Assembly: GCF_001426685.1 (NCBI RefSeq)
Contig: NZ_LMFB01000020.1
Location: 81,784-145,783, forward strand
Source of the DNA: Rhizobium sp. Root483D2
GTDB lineage: Bacteria; Pseudomonadota; Alphaproteobacteria; Rhizobiales; Rhizobiaceae
Direction: 5' to 3'
DNA length: 64,000 bases
This document shows positions 12,434 to 21,728 of this stretch, one piece after another. Below the pieces are notes generated by a model. The model ran no database searches, was not told the DNA's origin, and was given only the letters and a program-made list of their open reading frames with translations. The position numbers were made by a program, and so were the translations under genes. Each line of letters starts with the position of its first letter. Position 1 is the stretch's first letter.

Positions 12434-14089
12434 ATGAGCTACGATTACATCATCACAGGTGCCGGACCGGCCGGTTGCGTGCTGGCCAATCGGCTGACCG
12501 AAGACGCCGATGTCAAGGTGCTGCTTTTGGAGGCCGGGGGGAGCGATTGGAATCCGCTGTTTCACATGCCGGCCGGCTTTGCCAAGATGACCAAGGGCGT
12601 CGCCAGCTGGGGCTGGGAGACGGTGCCGCAGAAGCATATGAAGAACCGGGTGCTGCGCTATACGCAGGCCAAGGTGATCGGTGGTGGTTCGTCGATCAAC
12701 GCGCAGCTCTATACGCGCGGCAATGCGGCCGATTACGATCTTTGGGCGAGCGAGGACGGCTGCACCGGCTGGGATTACCGCAACGTGCTGCCCTATTTCA
12801 AACGGTCCGAGGACAACCAGCGTTTCGCCGACGACTATCATTCCTATGGTGGGCCGCTCGGGGTCTCCATGCCGGTCTCCGGCCTGCCGATCTGCGATGC
12901 CTATATCCGCGCGGGCCAGGAGCTCGGCATTCCCTACAATCACGATTTTAACGGTAGGCAGCAGGCGGGCGTCGGTTTCTATCAGTTGACCCAGCGCAAC
13001 CGCCGCCGTTCCTCGGCCTCGCTCGCCTATCTCAATCCGATCCGGACCCGCAAGAACCTGACGGTGCGGCTCGGCGCCCGCGTCACGCGGATCGTGCTGG
13101 AAGGGACACGCGCCGCCGGCGTCGAGGTCGCGGCCGCAAAGGGGCTCGAAATCATCCGCGCGGAGCGCGAGGTTCTGGTTTCCTCGGGCGCCATCGGATC
13201 GCCGAAGCTTCTGCAGCAGTCGGGCATCGGCCCGGCCGATCATCTGCGTTCTGTCGGCGTTGAGGTGAAACATGACCTGCCGGGCGTCGGCAGCAATCTG
13301 CAAGACCATCTCGACCTGTTTGTGATCTCAGAATGCACCGGCGACCACACCTATGACGGCGTCGCAAAGCTGCACCGTACCGTCTGGGCGGGGCTGCAAT
13401 ATGTGCTGTTCCGCTCCGGGCCGGTTGCCTCGTCGCTGTTTGAGACCGGCGGCTTCTGGTATGCCGATCCGGATGCGCGCTCGCCCGATATCCAGTTCCA
13501 TCTCGGTCTCGGGTCGGGCATCGAGGCAGGTGTCGAGAAACTGAAGAATGCCGGCGTGACGCTGAACTCGGCTTACCTGCATCCGCGCTCGCGCGGCACC
13601 GTGCGGCTCTCGTCGTCCGATCCCGTCGCAGCCCCGCTGATCGATCCCAATTACTGGAGCGACCCGCATGATCGCAAGATGTCGCTCGAAGGCCTGAAGA
13701 TCGCCCGCGAAATCTTCCAGCAGCAGGCGCTAAAACCCTTCATCATGGCCGAGCGGCTGCCGGGGCCGAAGGTGATGACCGATGACGAACTGTTCGACTA
13801 CGGCTGCGCCAATGCCAAGACCGATCACCATCCGGTCGGGACCTGCAAGATGGGCACCGGCGCCGATGCGGTCGTCGGGCTGGACTTGAAGGTGCATGGG
13901 CTGCAGGGCCTGCGCGTCTGCGATAGTTCGGTCATGCCGCGTGTTCCCTCTTGCAATACCAACGGGCCGACGATCATGATGGGTGAAAAGGGGTCCGACA
14001 TCATCCGCGGGCGGCAACCCTTGCCGGCCACCATCTTCAGCCATGAGCGCAACGACCAGCGGCCGCGGGCGCGCGCCGATATCCGATAG
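12434..14089 (+). CDS. GMC-family oxidoreductase (choline/alcohol dehydrogenase-like)
   Basis: A 551-residue GMC flavoprotein closer to BetA and alcohol dehydrogenases than the first GMC gene. The FAD site [18 protein letters not shown] is at residues 4-21, the first GMC signature region is near [17 protein letters not shown], and the second, [18 protein letters not shown], near residue 250. The catalytic His is in [10 protein letters not shown] and the Asn in [15 protein letters not shown] 12434 is chosen because the protein matches the family from there. It would oxidise an alcohol to an aldehyde or ketone. It is followed by a Dabb gene and a glycerate kinase with short gaps. Confidence 0.85.
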
Positions 14090-14098
14090 GAACCTGAA

Positions 14099-14413
14099 AT
14101 GATCCGCCATTGTGTCTTCATCCGCTTCCAGTCCACCATCGCCGATGCCGAGCGTCAGTCGATACTTGCCGATATTGCCGCGCTGCAGCGGCTGGTTCCC
14201 GGCTATCTGGCGTTTACGGCGGGGGGGAATTCCAGCCCGGAAGGTCTCGGCAAGGGATACAATAGCGGCTTCATCATCGACTTCGCCGATGTTGCGGCGC
14301 GTGACGCTTATCTCGTCCATCCCGCCCATGAAAAGGCTGGCGGCCGCATCGTGGCGGCGGCCGAGGGCGGTATCGATGGCGTCTTCGTCTATGATTTCGA
14401 GATTGCGGGCTGA
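14099..14413 (+). CDS. Dabb (stress-responsive alpha/beta-barrel) domain protein
   Basis: A 104-residue protein that begins IRHCVFIRF and ends [15 protein letters not shown], with HPAHEKAGG in the middle. This fits the dimeric ferredoxin-like Dabb fold, which covers the whole chain. Members range from plant stress proteins to small enzymes in catabolic operons; the activity here is unknown. It lies nine bases after the second GMC gene and seven before the kinase gene, so it is part of the operon and may help a reactive keto-intermediate rearrange or cyclise. That last point is inference. Confidence 0.75.
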
Positions 14414-14419
14414 GTTTTG

Positions 14420-15688
14420 ATGATCGCCGAACCCCGCGCCTTCCTGACGAGCCTGTTTGAGGCTGCCGTCAAAGCCGCCGATCCCCTGGCGGCCATCCGC
14501 GCCCATCTGCCGGAAAAGCCCAAGGGACGCACGATCGTTGTCGGTGCCGGAAAAGCGGCAAGCCAGATGGCGGCGGCGTTCGAAAGCCTGTGGGATGGAC
14601 CTCTGGAAGGCGCAGTCGTTGCCCGCCATGGCCCGGTCGCCCCTTGCAAGCGCATCCGGGTCCTGCAATCGGCCCATCCGGTCCCGGACGAGGCCGGACT
14701 TGCAGGATCGGCCGCGTTGCTGGCGCTGGTCGAGGGGCTGACGCCGGACGATCTGGTGGTGGCCCTGATTTCGGGCGGGGGGTCCTCGCTTTTGCCCGCG
14801 CCGCCGGCAGGCCTGACCCTCACCGACGAAATCGCCGTCAACCGGGCGCTGCTTGCTTCCGGCGCGCCGATCTCGGCAATGAACGTGGTGCGCAAGCATA
14901 TCTCCCGCATCAAGGGTGGACGGCTGGCCTTTGCCTGCGCCCCGGCGCGGGTGGTCAGCCTGATCGTATCGGATGTACCCGGCGACAATCCCGCCTTCGT
15001 CGCCTCCGGGCCGACCATTCCCGATGTCTCCACGCCCGCCGATGCGCTTGCCGTCATCAGCCGCTACGGAATGACGCTGCCTGACAGCGTGATGCGGCAC
15101 CTGCAATCGGAGCAGTCGGCAGCGCACGGGCCGGACCATCCCGCATTCGCCGGCCATGAGCATCATATCATTGCCTCTGCCAGCGTATCGCTGGAAGCTG
15201 CGGCTGCGCAGGCGCGGGCGCTTGGCGTCGAGGCCGTCATCCTGTCGGATGCGATCGAGGGAGAGGCCCGCGATATCGGCCGGATGCATGCGGCGATCGC
15301 GCGCGAGACGGCGCTGCGCAACCGGCCGTTTTCAAAGCCGGTGGTGATCCTGTCCGGCGGCGAAACAACGGTGACGATTTCGGGCGATGCCTATGGCAAG
15401 GGCGGCCGCAACAGCGAATTCCTGCTGTCGCTTGCGCTGGATATCGACGGCCTTGACGGCGTGCATGCGCTGGCCGCCGATACCGATGGCATTGACGGGT
15501 CCGAGGACAATGCCGGCGCTTTTGCCGATGGCGCGACCACGGCCCGCATGCGCGCGGCAGGCGCCGATCCGCGCGAGCATCTCGCCCGCCACGATGCCTG
15601 GAGCGCATTTCATGCGAGCGGCGATCTCTTCGTGCCTGGCCCGACCGGCACCAATGTCAACGACCTCAGGGCGATGCTGATCGTTTAA
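14420..15688 (+). CDS. ttuD: Glycerate 2-kinase (DUF4147/MOFRL family, TtuD-like)
   Basis: A 422-residue protein. The N-terminal DUF4147 domain has the glycine-rich GRTIVVGAGKAASQMA near residue 35 and ISGGGSSLLPAP near residue 115. The C-terminal MOFRL domain has LSGGETTVTISG and GKGGRNSEFLLSLAL. Proteins of this type were first called hydroxypyruvate reductases in tartrate clusters (TtuD), but characterised members phosphorylate glycerate to 2-phosphoglycerate. It suggests that the sugar route in this cluster ends at glycerate and enters lower glycolysis. ATG 14420 is preferred over a TTG one codon upstream. Confidence 0.85.
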   Translation: MIAEPRAFLTSLFEAAVKAADPLAAIRAHLPEKPKGRTIVVGAGKAASQMAAAFESLWDGPLEGAVVARHGPVAPCKRIRVLQSAHPVPDEAGLAGSAALLALVEGLTPDDLVVALISGGGSSLLPAPPAGLTLTDEIAVNRALLASGAPISAMNVVRKHISRIKGGRLAFACAPARVVSLIVSDVPGDNPAFVASGPTIPDVSTPADALAVISRYGMTLPDSVMRHLQSEQSAAHGPDHPAFAGHEHHIIASASVSLEAAAAQARALGVEAVILSDAIEGEARDIGRMHAAIARETALRNRPFSKPVVILSGGETTVTISGDAYGKGGRNSEFLLSLALDIDGLDGVHALAADTDGIDGSEDNAGAFADGATTARMRAAGADPREHLARHDAWSAFHASGDLFVPGPTGTNVNDLRAMLIV

Positions 15689-15775
15689 GACAGCATCGGA
15701 AAACCGGCATGCGCGGCCATCCAGCCGCTGCAAAGCGGGTAACTGTGGATATTGTAGATATTGCGCATATGGGCT

Positions 15776-15800
15776 GGAACAATTCCGGGAGGCATGCGTT
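15776..15800 (+). promoter_or_regulatory. Predicted EcfG-type promoter before the response regulator
   Basis: GGAAC at 15776-15780 and CGTT at 15797-15800 are separated by exactly 16 bases, matching the alphaproteobacterial general-stress sigma factor consensus GGAAC-N16/17-CGTT. Transcription would begin near 15807 and run into the response regulator gene at 15975. The leader of about 170 bases contains a possible 24-codon reading frame at 15879-15953 with GGAG upstream, which I do not call as a gene. Confidence 0.6.
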
Positions 15801-15974
15801 GCCCGCCATCGAAGGTTCGAGATTCCGCACTGCGGGAGTTGCCGCCAGTTGTGAACTTCTTTCCTTCGGAGACGATGAATGGACGTGAACGATGAAGGGG
15901 GCTTCTCAAACCAATATCGTTCCCCTATGCCGCGCTCCGCAGAACGCACATGATGTATGTACGGAAGTTTGAAA

Positions 15975-16373
15975 ATGAGTTGCAAAATCCTGGTGGTCGA
16001 AGACGAAATATTCGTTGCCACCGAAATTGAGTATCTGGTCGCAGAACTTGGGCATAACCCGATCGGCATCGCTGCGGACCGGGTATCGGCTTTCAACCTC
16101 GCGCCGTTCGCCGAGATCGCTCTGGTCGATCTCAATCTACGCGATGGGCCGACAGGAACCGAGATCGGCCGCATGCTGGCCGAACAGCACGGGGTCACGG
16201 TGTTGTTCATGACTGCCAATCCGTCACAGCTTGCCGATGGCGTTCCGGGCACGGTTGGGGTGATTTCCAAGCCGGTTGGTGAAGACGACCTGCGCCAGGT
16301 GGTCAGCTATGCGGTCGCCAAGCGGAATTCGGTTGCAGCCGACGTGCCGCCACGTCTGCGGGTCTTCCAGTAA
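15975..16373 (+). CDS. Single-domain response regulator
   Basis: A 132-residue protein that is only a receiver domain. The acidic pair is in ILVVEDEIF, the phospho-acceptor Asp in ALVDLNLRDG (about residue 54), the Thr in LFMTAN and the Lys in ISKPVGEDD. There is no output domain, so it probably works by protein contact or as a phosphate sink, as in alphaproteobacterial stress circuits. ATG 15975 has GGAAG seven bases upstream; a start at 15957 is less good. It converges on an HWE histidine kinase whose end is 18 bases away, and an EcfG-type promoter lies upstream. Confidence 0.88.
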   Translation: MSCKILVVEDEIFVATEIEYLVAELGHNPIGIAADRVSAFNLAPFAEIALVDLNLRDGPTGTEIGRMLAEQHGVTVLFMTANPSQLADGVPGTVGVISKPVGEDDLRQVVSYAVAKRNSVAADVPPRLRVFQ

Positions 16374-16391
16374 ATTTTTCTCAGCGCGGCG

Positions 16392-18308
16392 TCATGGCCG
16401 CGCCGCAAGCTTGCTGCTGCGCACGATCGAGGCGAGCGGCACCGTCACATGGACGCGCACGCCATCCTCGTCCCATTGACGATGAAATTGTCCCCCGAGC
16501 TGCCCTTCGACGCTGATCCGCATCAGGCGCGACCCGAACCCTTCCTGGTCCGGTTGGCGCACAGCAATTTCATTGCCGCTTTCCTTCCATTCCAGCACGT
16601 AGTTTTCACCGTCGTGGCGGCCCGCAATGGCCAGGCGTCCGCCGGCATGGGACAGGGCGCCATATTTGGCGGAATTGGTCGCGAGTTCATGCAGAAGCAG
16701 CGCCAGCGGCGTGGCGGCGCTGTCGCCGATGACGGTGTCGTCGCCTGCAAAGATGATCCGGCTTTCCATATCCTCCAGCCCATAGGGCTCGAGCAGCCGC
16801 TGTGTCAGGCCGAAGATGCTGGTTTCCAGATCCACCGGTCGCGACGTCCGGCTGTGCGGTCGGACGAAATCATGGGCGCGGCCCATCGCTTCGATGCGCT
16901 TGCGCAGGAGATCGGCAAAGCCGCGCGATTCAGGCGCTGAACGGGCGGACAGGCTGATGATACCGCTCAAAACTGAAAAGATGTTCTTAATGCGGTGGCT
17001 GAGTTCGTGCGCAACGATCTCGCGTTCGGCCTGAACCATCTTGGTGTCGTGAATATCCGTGCAGGTGCCGTACCAGCGGATGATCCCGCCGCTGTCATTG
17101 CGAATGGGCAATGCGCGTCCGAGCACCCAGCGATAGACGCCGCTGTGATGGCGCAGGCGGTATTCCACCTGATAGGCCTCTCCCGTCTGCAACGATTGGC
17201 GCCAGGTGGCCCAGGCGCGTTCGCGGTCCTCCTCGTGGAACATGCCGTTCCAGCCCTCGCCATCGGTCGATCCCTCTAGAACGCCGGTGAATTCGTACCA
17301 GCGGGCATTGTAATAGTCGTGAAAACCATCCGGAAGCGTCGACCAGACCATCTGCGGCATGGCATCGGCAAGGGTGCGAAAGCCGATTTCAGAGCGGGCA
17401 TGCGCCTCAAGCGCTTCCTTTTGGGCGGTGATATCGACGGAGACGCCGGGAAACCGGATGCATGTACCGTGTTCGTCGATCAGCGGCTGGCCTTCGGCAA
17501 GCACCCATTTGATGCTGCCATCTTCCTGAACAAGCCGGTATTCCTTTGAAAAGCGCCCGCCGGTTTGCATGGCGTTCTGCATGGCGCCGCCGACCTGTTG
17601 GACATCGTCGGGATGGATCGTGCGGATGAAATCCGCAATCGGGGCGCCATGGCGCGCGACCTTGGGATCGACGCGGTAGAGTTGCGCGAACTTTTCGTCG
17701 GAATAGACACGATCTTCAGGAACATGCCAGTCCCAGGTACCGACAACGGCGGAGCTGCCAAGCGCCAGCGAAAGCTGTTCGCGGCTGTGGGCCAGTTCCT
17801 GTTCGGCAGTCACACGCTTGGTCGTCTCGACGACCAGGGCGAGGACTGCGACGGTGCTGCCGTCGTCATCCAGGATCGGGCTGTAGTCGAGATCGAGCCA
17901 GACGTTTTCCGCCATGCCATTGCGATGGAACGTAAACTCCTGGTCCTCAAAGGACAGGCTCTCGCCGGCAAATACGCGACCGATAATATCGGCGTTGAAG
18001 TCCGCCACCTCAGGCCATGCGGAAAGGACCGATGCGCCGAAACAATCCGGGTGGCGGCCGCCGGCGATGGCGATATAGCCGTCATTGTAGAGCATGATGC
18101 CGTCGCGCCCGGCCAGCAGCGCCATGGGGATCGGCGATGCCAGCAGCATCCGGCAGGCAGCCTTCAGTGCGTCAGGCCAGCCGTCGAGGGCCCCAAGACT
18201 TGTCGTCGCCCAATTCAAGCCATTGAACCGGCGCAGCATCTCGCTGGCGGCAAGTTTGGCTGGGATCTTTCCCCCTGATCGGGAAAACAAAGACGACTGA
18301 CTATCCAT
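16392..18308 (-). CDS. HWE-family PAS histidine kinase
   Basis: A 638-residue cytoplasmic sensor kinase with no membrane segment. Three PAS-type regions are read at about residues 40-165, 175-295 and 305-425; the latter two end in the PAC-like VDITAQK and TDIHDTK. The H-box HELSHRIKN holds the likely phospho-acceptor His438. The defining HWE residues are visible: His540 in HELATNSAKYGAL, and Trp and Glu in LEWKES near 573-577. No LOV cysteine motif was seen, so the signal is unknown. HWE kinases often feed the PhyR/EcfG stress pathway, and the neighbours carry EcfG-type promoters. Confidence 0.9.
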   Translation of the reverse strand: MDSQSSLFSRSGGKIPAKLAASEMLRRFNGLNWATTSLGALDGWPDALKAACRMLLASPIPMALLAGRDGIMLYNDGYIAIAGGRHPDCFGASVLSAWPEVADFNADIIGRVFAGESLSFEDQEFTFHRNGMAENVWLDLDYSPILDDDGSTVAVLALVVETTKRVTAEQELAHSREQLSLALGSSAVVGTWDWHVPEDRVYSDEKFAQLYRVDPKVARHGAPIADFIRTIHPDDVQQVGGAMQNAMQTGGRFSKEYRLVQEDGSIKWVLAEGQPLIDEHGTCIRFPGVSVDITAQKEALEAHARSEIGFRTLADAMPQMVWSTLPDGFHDYYNARWYEFTGVLEGSTDGEGWNGMFHEEDRERAWATWRQSLQTGEAYQVEYRLRHHSGVYRWVLGRALPIRNDSGGIIRWYGTCTDIHDTKMVQAEREIVAHELSHRIKNIFSVLSGIISLSARSAPESRGFADLLRKRIEAMGRAHDFVRPHSRTSRPVDLETSIFGLTQRLLEPYGLEDMESRIIFAGDDTVIGDSAATPLALLLHELATNSAKYGALSHAGGRLAIAGRHDGENYVLEWKESGNEIAVRQPDQEGFGSRLMRISVEGQLGGQFHRQWDEDGVRVHVTVPLASIVRSSKLAARP

Positions 18309-18523
18309 GCGCTCTCAAATGCTCTGACGGGCGGCCCTCATCGGGCCTTGGCGAGAACCCGGCATATAGAGAGGGTTTGCCGGAAGTCATCCTTTGCACA
18401 CGGTTTTTCTTCATCGGCACTTACCAAGGCGGAGCGAATATTCGCCCGGTCCGGACGGGTCAGAACGTTCAGCCGGCGTCCTTCTCTGGCTGCCCGTCCG
18501 GCTCTTTTTCGAGGCATCACACC

Positions 18524-18548
18524 GGAACAAATTCACCTTTTGCCCGTT
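18524..18548 (+). promoter_or_regulatory. Predicted EcfG-type promoter before the transglutaminase-like gene
   Basis: GGAAC at 18524-18528 and CGTT at 18545-18548 are 16 bases apart, an exact match to the general-stress promoter consensus. Transcription would begin near 18555, followed by the ribosome site TGGAGGA and ATG 18575. The 266 bases between the kinase and this gene otherwise hold nothing that I recognise. Confidence 0.7.
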
Positions 18549-18574
18549 CCTGCGATGTGGTGGAGGAAGCATTT

Positions 18575-19492
18575 ATGTTCATTCGGTTGGGTTACGAAAT
18601 AGGCATCAGCTGCGATCAGCCGACCCCGATGATGACGTTTTTGTCGGTGGATCGCGCCAGACGGCATGATATCGTCAGCGAACGCGGACCGATTTCCGAT
18701 CCTGTCGTCAAGATGGGGGAAGTGACCGATCCTTTTGGCAATGTCTGCATGCGTATGGTCGTTCCAGCCGGCGGGCTGCGTCTCAGCTATGATGCGGTGA
18801 TCAAGGACAGTGGCCGGCCGGACCCGGTCAACAGGGCCGCACAGCAGGTGCCGGTCGAAAACCTGCCCGCCGAATGCCTTCCCTATCTTTCCGCCAGCCG
18901 CTATTGCGAGACCGACCGTTTCGGCGCACTTGCCTGGCGTCTGTTCGGCGAAGTGGAACCGGGCTGGGCCCGTGTACAGGCAATCTGCGACTACGTGCAT
19001 CAGCGCCTGACCTTCAGCTATGGCTATACGGCGACGCTGCGCACAGCGATGGAAGCGCATGATGAGCGGTCGGGCGTATGCCGCGATTATGCGCATCTTG
19101 CCGTGGCGCTCTGCCGTGCGATGAATATGCCCGCGCGTTACGTCAACGGCTATATGGGCGATTTCAGCGAAACCGATCATCCAGCCCCCATGGATTTCAA
19201 CGCCTGGTTCGAAGTCTACCTTGACGACCGGTGGTATACGTTCGATGCCCGCCACAATGCCCCGCGCATCGGCCGGGTCGCGGTTGCGCGAGGCCGCGAT
19301 GCCGCCGACATTCCGCTGATCCAGACATTCGGCAAGCATGAATTGACGACGTTCAAAGTGTGGACCTCAAAGGAAACGGACAGTGCGTTGACCAAGCGGC
19401 ATAGCCGGGCGGATGTGTCGCTTTTGACGCCGTGGTTCAGCGAACGCTGGTCCAAGCTCGTGCAGCAGCGGGAGCTGGAGCGGGGGCATTGA
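18575..19492 (+). CDS. Transglutaminase-like protein
   Basis: A 305-residue protein with a transglutaminase/protease-like core from about residue 70 to 270. The nucleophile fits Cys169 in SGVCRDYAHLAVAL, and the third triad residue fits Asp224 in WYTFDARHN. The position where these proteins usually have the catalytic His is Asn209 (MDFNAWFEVYL), so activity may be altered. No signal peptide is seen. The family includes peptidases and peptide-crosslinking enzymes, often near genes for ATP-grasp or alpha-E proteins, which are absent here. ATG 18575 has the strong site TGGAGGA; upstream readings to 18377 have none. An EcfG-type promoter suggests stress induction. Confidence 0.8.
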   Translation: MFIRLGYEIGISCDQPTPMMTFLSVDRARRHDIVSERGPISDPVVKMGEVTDPFGNVCMRMVVPAGGLRLSYDAVIKDSGRPDPVNRAAQQVPVENLPAECLPYLSASRYCETDRFGALAWRLFGEVEPGWARVQAICDYVHQRLTFSYGYTATLRTAMEAHDERSGVCRDYAHLAVALCRAMNMPARYVNGYMGDFSETDHPAPMDFNAWFEVYLDDRWYTFDARHNAPRIGRVAVARGRDAADIPLIQTFGKHELTTFKVWTSKETDSALTKRHSRADVSLLTPWFSERWSKLVQQRELERGH

Positions 19493-19667
19493 GAGTGGCC
19501 GGGTATTTCGCCCGGTGAAAATCATGCTTCAGGTTGGTTTTTTCCTTAACCGCGCAAAAGGTAGAAAATAATCTCTATAAACTTGGTGTAAAATAGCGGA
19601 GAAAAGTACCAGACACAGTCGCCCTTCAGGCTTCTGATAATCTGCAACAACTCAAGTGGAGGACATT

Positions 19668-19817
19668 ATGCAAGGTTCGAAACCAGTCATGCAGAAAAGT
19701 CCGGTGAGCTACAGCGTTCATCCGGCACCGCAGTTTTCCTGGACAATGGCCGCGCAGGCCACAGCCCTTGCCGCCGCCTTCCTGTTCGTGACAGCGCTGG
19801 TTTTTGGCGCGATTTGA
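19668..19817 (+). CDS. Small single-span membrane protein, 49 residues
   Basis: An open frame of 49 codons with ATG 19668 preceded by GTGGAGGAC, one of the best ribosome sites in the window. The protein has a polar N-terminal part (MQGSKPVMQKSPVSYSVHP) and one hydrophobic helix, roughly residues 27-49 (MAAQATALAAAFLFVTALVF). It ends in a short tail GAI, so the C terminus lies at the membrane edge. A strong stem-loop follows 29 bases after the stop. I do not recognise a family. A function near stress genes is possible but unproven. Confidence 0.6.
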   Translation: MQGSKPVMQKSPVSYSVHPAPQFSWTMAAQATALAAAFLFVTALVFGAI

Positions 19818-19845
19818 GCGGTCCAATCAAAAAATTAACATTTTC

Positions 19846-19877
19846 AGGCCCTTGCGTCCCTCCGGATGTAGGGGCCT
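19846..19877 (+). terminator. Stem-loop after the small membrane protein gene
   Basis: Bases 19846-19859 pair with 19864-19877 over 14 positions, three of them G-U, around a CTCC loop. The T tract after it is short (TGCGTTT), so it may be an mRNA-stabilising 3' structure rather than a strong terminator. Confidence 0.55.
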
Positions 19878-20281
19878 TGCGTTTAGGGGTACACGAGAAG
19901 ATTTCTTGCACTGCGATCCATGCGTGCTCTTCCTCTTAAAAACCCATCCGGCCCAGCTGATTTGACCCCGTGGCGCATATGCCGCAATCGACGGCGGTTG
20001 CGGACGGCCACATCATCCCCCTTGCCGTCAGTCTTGCGGATATCGTAGCCTTGCCGTCTGAGATCCGACCCTCCTTCGTGTGAGGAGTGTCGGAGCGAAG
20101 CGGTTGGGAGGGATGCCTGTTGTTTCAAAGTGGGTCCTTCCGCAACCCTGCCCAGGAGGGGGAGGGGTTTTTACGGCGCCTGCAGCAACCGCTGCGGCGG
20201 CTCAAGCGAGTTTTCAGCGGTGAACGCTATCGCCAATCGATCCCGGTTGGCGCACTGAAAAACAGAAGACGATCAGACGGG
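19878..20281. other. Intergenic stretch with no recognised gene
   Basis: About 400 bases between the small gene's stem-loop and the ribosome site of the aldehyde dehydrogenase. Short open frames occur on both strands (for example 20087 onward on + and 19883-20128 on -), but they lack ribosome sites and have arginine-rich shadow-like composition. GAGGGGGAGGGG near 20155 is a purine run. I see no tRNA, repeat family or clear promoter. Confidence 0.5.
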
Positions 20282-20294
20282 AAGGACAAGAAAC

Positions 20295-21728
20295 ATGCTC
20301 GACAAGCGCAAATTCTACATCAACGGCGAATGGGTCGCTCCCCTTGTGGCCAACGATCTCGAGGTTTTGAACCCGGCGACCGAAAAGCCGGTCGCGGTGA
20401 TTTCCATGGGAAGTGCTGCGGATATCGACCGCGCCGTCGCCGCTGCCAAAACGGCTTTTGCGACCTATAGCCGCACGACGACGGAAGAGCGGCTGGCCCT
20501 TCTGGAAAAGCTGCTTTCCATCTACAAGCGCCGCTACGAAGAGATGGCGCAGACCATCACGCTGGAGCTTGGCGCGCCGCTGTCCATGAGCCGCGAACAG
20601 CAGGCCGATGTCGGCGTTGGCCATCTCCAGGGCTTTATCGACGCGCTGAAGCGCCTGCACAGCCGCGAAGTGCTGCCCAATGGCGATGTCATGCTGCGCG
20701 AGCCAATCGGCGTCTGCGGCCTGATCACGCCCTGGAACTGGCCGATCAACCAGATCGCGCTGAAGGTGGTGCCCGCCCTTGCGACCGGCTCGACCTGCGT
20801 GCTGAAGCCATCGGAATTCACGCCGCTGAACGCGTTGCTTTATGCCGAAATGGTGCATGAGGCCGGCTTTCCGGCCGGCACGTTCAACCTCGTCAATGGC
20901 GATGGCCCGAACGTCGGGGCCGCACTCTCCAAGCACAAGGACGTCGATATGATGTCGTTCACGGGCTCGACCCGCGCCGGCATCGCCGTCAGCAAGGATG
21001 CGGCCGAAACGGTCAAGCGCGTGACGCTGGAGCTTGGCGGCAAGTCGCCGAACATCGTCTTCGAAGATGCCGATCTTGAAGACCGGGTTTCCGGCAGCGT
21101 GCTGGAATGCTTCAACAATTCCGGCCAGTCCTGCGATGCGCCAACGCGTCTCCTGGTACAGAAGTCGGTCTATGACAAGGCCGTCGAGATCGCCACGCGG
21201 GTCGGAAGCGAGGCGAAAGTCGGCAATCCCGCCGAGGAAGGCAGCCATATCGGGCCGCTGGTCAGCGATGTCCAGTTCGGCCGGGTGCAGGCCCTGATCG
21301 AGGCTGGCATTGCCGAAGGTGCGCGTGTTCTCGTCGGCGGTGCCGGCAAGCCGGACGGTTTTGAGACCGGCTATTTCGTCAAGCCGACGATCTTTGCCGA
21401 TGTCAACAATACCATGCGCATTGCCCGCGAAGAGGTGTTCGGTCCGGTGCTTGCCATCATGCCGTTCGAGACCGAAGAGGAAGCGATCGAGATCGCCAAC
21501 GACACCAATTACGGGCTTGCGGCTTACGTCCAGACCGGTGATCCCAAGCGCGCCGAACGCGTTGCCGCACGGCTTCGCGCCGGCATGGTCCATATCAACG
21601 GCGGGCCGCATCGCTATGGCAGCCCGTTCGGCGGCTACAAGCAATCCGGCAATGGCCGCGAAGGCGGCCGTTTCGGGCTCGAGGATTTCCTCGAAGTGAA
21701 GACTGTTCACCGGCCTGACGCCGCCTGA
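20295..21728 (+). CDS. Aldehyde dehydrogenase family protein
   Basis: A 477-residue aldehyde dehydrogenase. TPWNWPI carries Asn148, FTGSTRAGI is the cofactor loop, Glu246 is in LELGGKS, and the nucleophile Cys280 is in NSGQSCDAPTR. The C-terminal SPFGGYKQSGNGREGG is complete. AAGGA lies eight bases before ATG 20295. It has its own leader and is followed by an intergenic repeat, so it may be monocistronic. If the aminotransferase and ureohydrolase downstream belong to an arginine-transaminase-type route, this enzyme could fill the guanidinobutyraldehyde step; that is inference only. Confidence 0.9.
   Translation: MLDKRKFYINGEWVAPLVANDLEVLNPATEKPVAVISMGSAADIDRAVAAAKTAFATYSRTTTEERLALLEKLLSIYKRRYEEMAQTITLELGAPLSMSREQQADVGVGHLQGFIDALKRLHSREVLPNGDVMLREPIGVCGLITPWNWPINQIALKVVPALATGSTCVLKPSEFTPLNALLYAEMVHEAGFPAGTFNLVNGDGPNVGAALSKHKDVDMMSFTGSTRAGIAVSKDAAETVKRVTLELGGKSPNIVFEDADLEDRVSGSVLECFNNSGQSCDAPTRLLVQKSVYDKAVEIATRVGSEAKVGNPAEEGSHIGPLVSDVQFGRVQALIEAGIAEGARVLVGGAGKPDGFETGYFVKPTIFADVNNTMRIAREEVFGPVLAIMPFETEEEAIEIANDTNYGLAAYVQTGDPKRAERVAARLRAGMVHINGGPHRYGSPFGGYKQSGNGREGGRFGLEDFLEVKTVHRPDAA

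Follow-up and report, generated by a model that had tools for sequence, protein, structure and literature searches.

LovK of Caulobacter crescentus, which has a LOV domain, and ExsG of Sinorhizobium meliloti, an HWE kinase, are the kinases of the described systems closest to the locus analysed here. In C. crescentus, LovK and the single-domain receiver LovR are encoded in one operon (lovKR) under the control of the EcfG-type sigma factor SigT, and negative feedback has been proposed for them (PMC5964349). In S. meliloti, RpoE2 controls the sensor kinase gene exsG and the response regulator gene exsF, with a GGAAC...CGTT promoter listed for exsG (PMC6180224, Table 1). Other single-domain receivers, SdrG and MrrA (FATGUY), are described in phosphorelays of the general stress response (PMC5964349, PMC6599016). 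The EcfG1 motif of R. etli is given as GGAAC-N16-CGTT and was found upstream of 19 of the 56 putative transcription units whose expression fell in an ecfG1 mutant (PMC3892343).

In the window, i.e., the whole 64-kb stretch of DNA that was analysed, a pattern scan for GGAAC-N16/17-CGTT revealed two exact matches, both spaced N16 and both on the plus strand, at the very positions given in the original prediction. Its gene layout was also as described, with a receiver gene (plus strand), a three-PAS HWE kinase gene (minus strand) and a transglutaminase-like (TG) gene (plus strand). The features of the locus are as follows.

15776-15800, plus strand: EcfG-type promoter, very probably, of the receiver gene, GGAACAATTCCGGGAGGCATGCGTT, exact GGAAC-N16-CGTT, start predicted near 15807
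15975-16373, plus strand: single-domain response regulator, 132 aa, PhyR-receiver-like (NF009972, PF00072, solved structures)
16392-18308, minus strand: histidine kinase of the HWE type with three PAS domains, 638 aa, its gene convergent with that of the receiver (PAS_3, PAS_4 and HWE_HK over cut-off)
18363-18392, minus strand: GGATGACTTCC-N13-TATATG, a block kept upstream of the kinase in 6/6 pair-bearing genomes of the genus
18524-18548, plus strand: EcfG-type promoter, very probably, of the TG gene, GGAACAAATTCACCTTTTGCCCGTT, exact GGAAC-N16-CGTT, start predicted near 18555
18526-18550, minus strand: reverse half of the near-palindromic TG-side site, GGAAC-N16-TGTT, directed towards the kinase; possible but weak bidirectional promoter
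18575-19492, plus strand: transglutaminase-like protein, 305 aa (PF01841, 1.9e-20)

The receiver-side site lies between the receiver gene and a gene with DUF4147 and MOFRL domains (14417-15688), which we take to be glycerate-kinase-like, and the TG-side site lies between the kinase and TG genes. The receiver and kinase genes are convergent, with their stop codons 18 bases apart, and no Rfam match at the gathering score indicated a structured RNA at 14000-21000.

The motif count by itself is weak evidence for promoters. About one chance match per window had been expected, in agreement with the mean of 0.98 in shuffled windows, and at least two exact matches occurred in 27 of 100 of these. In the genome-wide scan proposed as a check, no excess of GGAAC-N16/17-CGTT was detected (127 matches vs 150 for the backwards control). 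A chance count as sole proof was therefore dropped. The narrower form common to both window sites, GGAACAA-N14/15-CGTT, which was picked after inspecting them, was commoner than its control genome-wide (18 vs 5).

Conservation within the genus carries the identification of both sites. A DNA search of 25 genomes, the present one included, recovered the TG gene start in 21 and the receiver–kinase pair in six, and diverged copies may be missed because the gene- and pair-bearing genomes are those from this search. The TG-side site was kept in 20 of the 21 genomes in the form GGAAC-N15-17-YGTT (16 strict, three with TGTT and one with N15), at -44 to -52 relative to the ATG, and the single exception had GGAAG instead. 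Across the 21 genomes, mean pairwise identity was 0.98 for the -35 and 0.94 for the -10 element, 0.38 for positions 4-14 of the spacer, and 0.54 for the 20 nt preceding the site. All six genomes with a recovered pair had the strict receiver-side site, placed -199 to -248 relative to the ATG, with a diverged spacer and surrounding DNA that aligns poorly. Each site thus combines a GGAAC-N16/17-CGTT upstream of a gene with -35 and -10 elements kept around a diverged spacer in relatives, and the two are considered real because they are conserved (20/21 and 6/6). From the conserved ends and diverged spacers, both are very probably EcfG-type promoters, as originally proposed.

The receiver, whose start codon was picked for its GGAAG ribosome site, scored 146.7 bits against NF009972 (cut-off 119; copy without the first five residues) and 31.0 bits against PF00072 (cut-off 30.2). 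Its best NCBIfam outside PRK13435 was the PhyR family (68.7 bits, below the whole-protein cut-off of 240), and seven of its nine solved-structure matches were two-domain proteins of 265-286 aa aligned at their receiver end, one of them named PhyR, which places its sequence nearer to the receivers of PhyR proteins than to the majority of others. Like SdrG and MrrA, it is a single-domain receiver, and it matches the solved structure 2n9u, which we take to be SdrG. It differs from them in the FATG motif after beta-4, which was present in none of the 35 rows examined (G024 counted twice), the window receiver having FMTA instead. The 132-aa protein consists of the receiver domain only, and the sigma-like domain of PhyR is not found in it. 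Judged by these matches, the protein is PhyR-receiver-like, yet without FATG and without the sigma-like domain. The acidic pair, the phosphoacceptor Asp, the Thr and the Lys are retained, as read by eye from the translation.

For the kinase, the HWE_HK domain (PF07536) was detected at 45.1 bits (cut-off 22.8), identifying it as an HWE kinase. Its best solved match was 6ph4, a blue-light-activated kinase; against the model of blue-light-activated histidine kinases (NF052306), it reached 133.8 bits over residues 365-624, far under the cut-off of 450, which sets it apart from LovK. The H-box (HELSHRIKN), the N-box (HELATNSAKYG) and the W-E pair are likewise retained, so that, as read by eye, both proteins keep the residues expected for activity. 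Upstream of the kinase, the block GGATGACTTCC-N13-TATATG was conserved in all six pair-bearing genomes of the genus, apart from a single-base change each in G018 and G023. A sigma-70 consensus scan gave nothing at this block and returned one terminator-like site, shuffles averaging 3.6. The block, which is not EcfG-like, is likely the kinase's own promoter. No conserved EcfG-type site was found upstream of the kinase in the pair-bearing genomes of the genus, so that any loop there would pass through the receiver only; outside the genus, a GGAAC...GTT site preceded 5 of 15 kinases, indicating that kinase control varies.

In 23 of the 30 loci examined (the present one and G024 included), a convergent kinase match adjoined the receiver, and the other seven had no kinase match inside their 1500-base flanks; the 30 loci are those with the strongest matches among 44 places. 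By this recurrent arrangement, the receiver and the convergent HWE kinase are a partner pair that recurs across the family. A single module marked by both sites, as proposed, was not supported by the comparison, as the TG-side site is also kept at places lacking the pair and no EcfG-type site is conserved upstream of the kinase in the genus. In G013, G010, G011, and G016, the glycerate-kinase-like gene directly adjoins the TG gene, the pair is absent there and the TG-side site is kept. In G005, the site is likewise kept in a stretch where only the TG gene is visible. A search of the whole genomes of G005, G010, and G016 gave no receiver match at E 1e-28. On this comparison of sequences, the two sites are independent neighbours, not one unit.

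The genome also encodes the circuit to which the pair had been tied. Two PhyR and two NepR genes were over cut-off, one set on contig C6 and the other on C1; the C6 phyR-nepR set is followed by an EcfG-like gene and has GGAAC-N16-CGTT between phyR and nepR. The proposed tie to PhyR/NepR/EcfG is supported by these genes together with the PhyR-receiver-like nature of the receiver. Around the C1 set, ten GGAAC-N16/17-CGTT sites were counted in ~14 kb (G000:C1:77559-91729, L104), and in the 20 kb of L104 the EcfG query matched only where the sigma-like part of PhyR is. A second PhyR-like single-domain receiver, adjoining frames that match histidine kinases, was detected at G000:C19:47714-49355 (L105, 7715-9356), where two GGAAC...CGTT sites fall inside the first frame, in what is listed as its 5' part.

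For the TG gene, a literature search for EcfG, transglutaminase and the general stress response together found no report, a result that describes the search and not what is in print. A 49-aa ORF without a Pfam match follows the gene at 19668-19817 of the window. In eight relatives (L041, L049-L055), a further GGAACATTA...GCGTT site falls, by arithmetic, at or near the TG gene end, and there is no such match in the window.

We consider it somewhat probable that the EcfG-induced receiver and the HWE kinase form a feedback branch resembling LovK-LovR, beside an independent EcfG-controlled TG gene. The pair is read as tuning phosphate flow to PhyR on the basis of the family likeness of receiver and kinase and the precedents of LovK-LovR and ExsG-ExsF. 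With LovK-LovR, it shares a kinase, a single-domain receiver and control by an EcfG-type sigma factor, SigT there (PMC5964349) and predicted here, whereas lovKR is one operon and the window genes are convergent, with an EcfG site conserved only at the receiver in the genus. With ExsG-ExsF, it shares a sensor kinase and a response regulator, RpoE2-controlled in that case (PMC6180224), but the promoter is listed there with the kinase and in the window belongs to the receiver. Under stress, EcfG would be released from NepR and would increase the amount of receiver, while the kinase would be produced from its own promoter. The receiver might then swap phosphoryl groups with the convergent kinase, and perhaps with other HWE kinases, and thereby feed back on the phosphate reaching PhyR, with damping likelier than boosting, as in LovK-LovR. 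EcfG dependence, phosphotransfer and the sign of the feedback are what this reading would add to the observed sites, conservation, gene families and recurrent pairing. The long leader of ~170 nt before the receiver counts against it, as do the lack of a genome-wide excess of the exact motif, the missing FATG of the receiver and, in the genus, the want of a conserved EcfG site at the kinase.

EcfG might also control the receiver and TG genes while the pair serves as an output branch without feedback on PhyR. This explanation, which we regard as possible but rather unlikely, would suit a self-contained pair on a contig different from that of the phyR-nepR genes, and the related single-domain receiver Sma0114 has been assigned a catabolite role (PMC5964349); against it, most of the solved structures matched by the receiver are PhyR-like two-domain proteins, aligned at their receiver end. 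A chance origin of one or both matches, without EcfG control, would be compatible with two matches per 64 kb and with the lack of a genome-wide excess of the exact motif, but ends kept around unkept spacers in 20/21 and 6/6 genomes make it most improbable.

Control of all three genes by EcfG, through a TG-side site acting as a bidirectional promoter that also drives the kinase, has little probability. The other strand of the site does read GGAAC-N16-TGTT, this reverse half is readable in many relatives, and outside the genus 5/15 kinases are preceded by a GGAAC site of their own. However, the reverse -35 is AGAAC in three of the six pair-bearing genomes of the genus (G012, G023, and G018), a closer conserved block precedes the kinase in 6/6, and the reverse half is kept where no kinase is present, e.g., in G010. 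As the main reading it was dropped, given the AGAAC variants and the kinase's own block.

The least expected part of the findings is a switch of promoter class between clades. Among 28 receiver loci outside the genus, of which two, L101 and L102, reach only 49% identity, a GGAAC-type site was found in 12 and GCAAC-N16/17-NGTT in 17 (L078, L080-L085, L088, L090-L092, L094-L097, L099, and L100), with both in two and neither in one; the GCAAC class and the widened GGAAC class (CATT, AGTT, TGTT) were set after viewing the sequences. In 200 shuffles preserving single-base but not dinucleotide content, the means were 0.19 (GGAAC) and 0.17 (GCAAC), and no shuffle gave more than 2. The 14 of 37 rows of the receiver-site scan, whose shuffles were of the same single-base kind, include G024 twice and two more distant receivers (L106 and L119). 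On the kinase tree (22 rows, 20 labelled and two in no group, with 5 of 27 genomes left out for want of an adjacent kinase match), the two classes need one change, at a branch with support of 92/93, and the receivers of the other kinase clade have GCAAC-N16-[AC]GTT in place of the GGAAC-type site. In 14 neighbourhoods of receivers with the GCAAC site, a P450 cluster was adjacent in 13 and a GyrB cluster in 10. In genus g47 (L129, L130, and L133), GGAAC-N16-CGTT stands upstream of the kinase and a GCAAC site at the receiver.

At the NepR locus of 10 GCAAC-class genomes, GGAAC was found in seven and GCAAC in none, so GCAAC may be a tolerated variant or the site of another sigma factor, and with GCAAC at 17/28 receivers, EcfG control is not simply transferable to those genera. 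Two EcfG-dependent genes of Sphingomonas melonis are described with predicted GCAACCC...CGTT sites (PMC6599016). A large GCAAC regulon was rejected, TGCAACC-N15-MGTT having 41 matches in 10 genomes together vs 28 for its backwards control. Also rejected was an ECF sigma gene adjoining the pair outside the genus, none being present among the six recurring neighbour clusters (P450, YraN, RsmI, cyclase, GyrB, and DNA polymerase I), each identified by eye from a single translation. Tentatively, the pair may have been re-wired between two ECF-type promoter classes: GCAAC-N16-[AC]GTT in a clade where the pair mostly sits next to P450 and close to gyrB, its reader being another sigma factor or an EcfG that tolerates this variant, and GGAAC-N16-CGTT in the window clade, where EcfG would be the reader.

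In summary, the pair is ordinary in kind and well conserved, and a feedback loop around it, of a type known from other alphaproteobacteria, is likely. With its partner HWE kinase, the conserved and probably EcfG-inducible single-domain receiver, which is not of the FATGUY kind, extends the set of candidate feedback branches in the general stress response of alphaproteobacteria, and the TG-like gene joins the likely targets of this response. The GGAAC/GCAAC switch would offer a natural test of specificity change in EcfG-type promoters, and if a different sigma factor reads GCAAC, the pair would join two ECF regulons over evolution.
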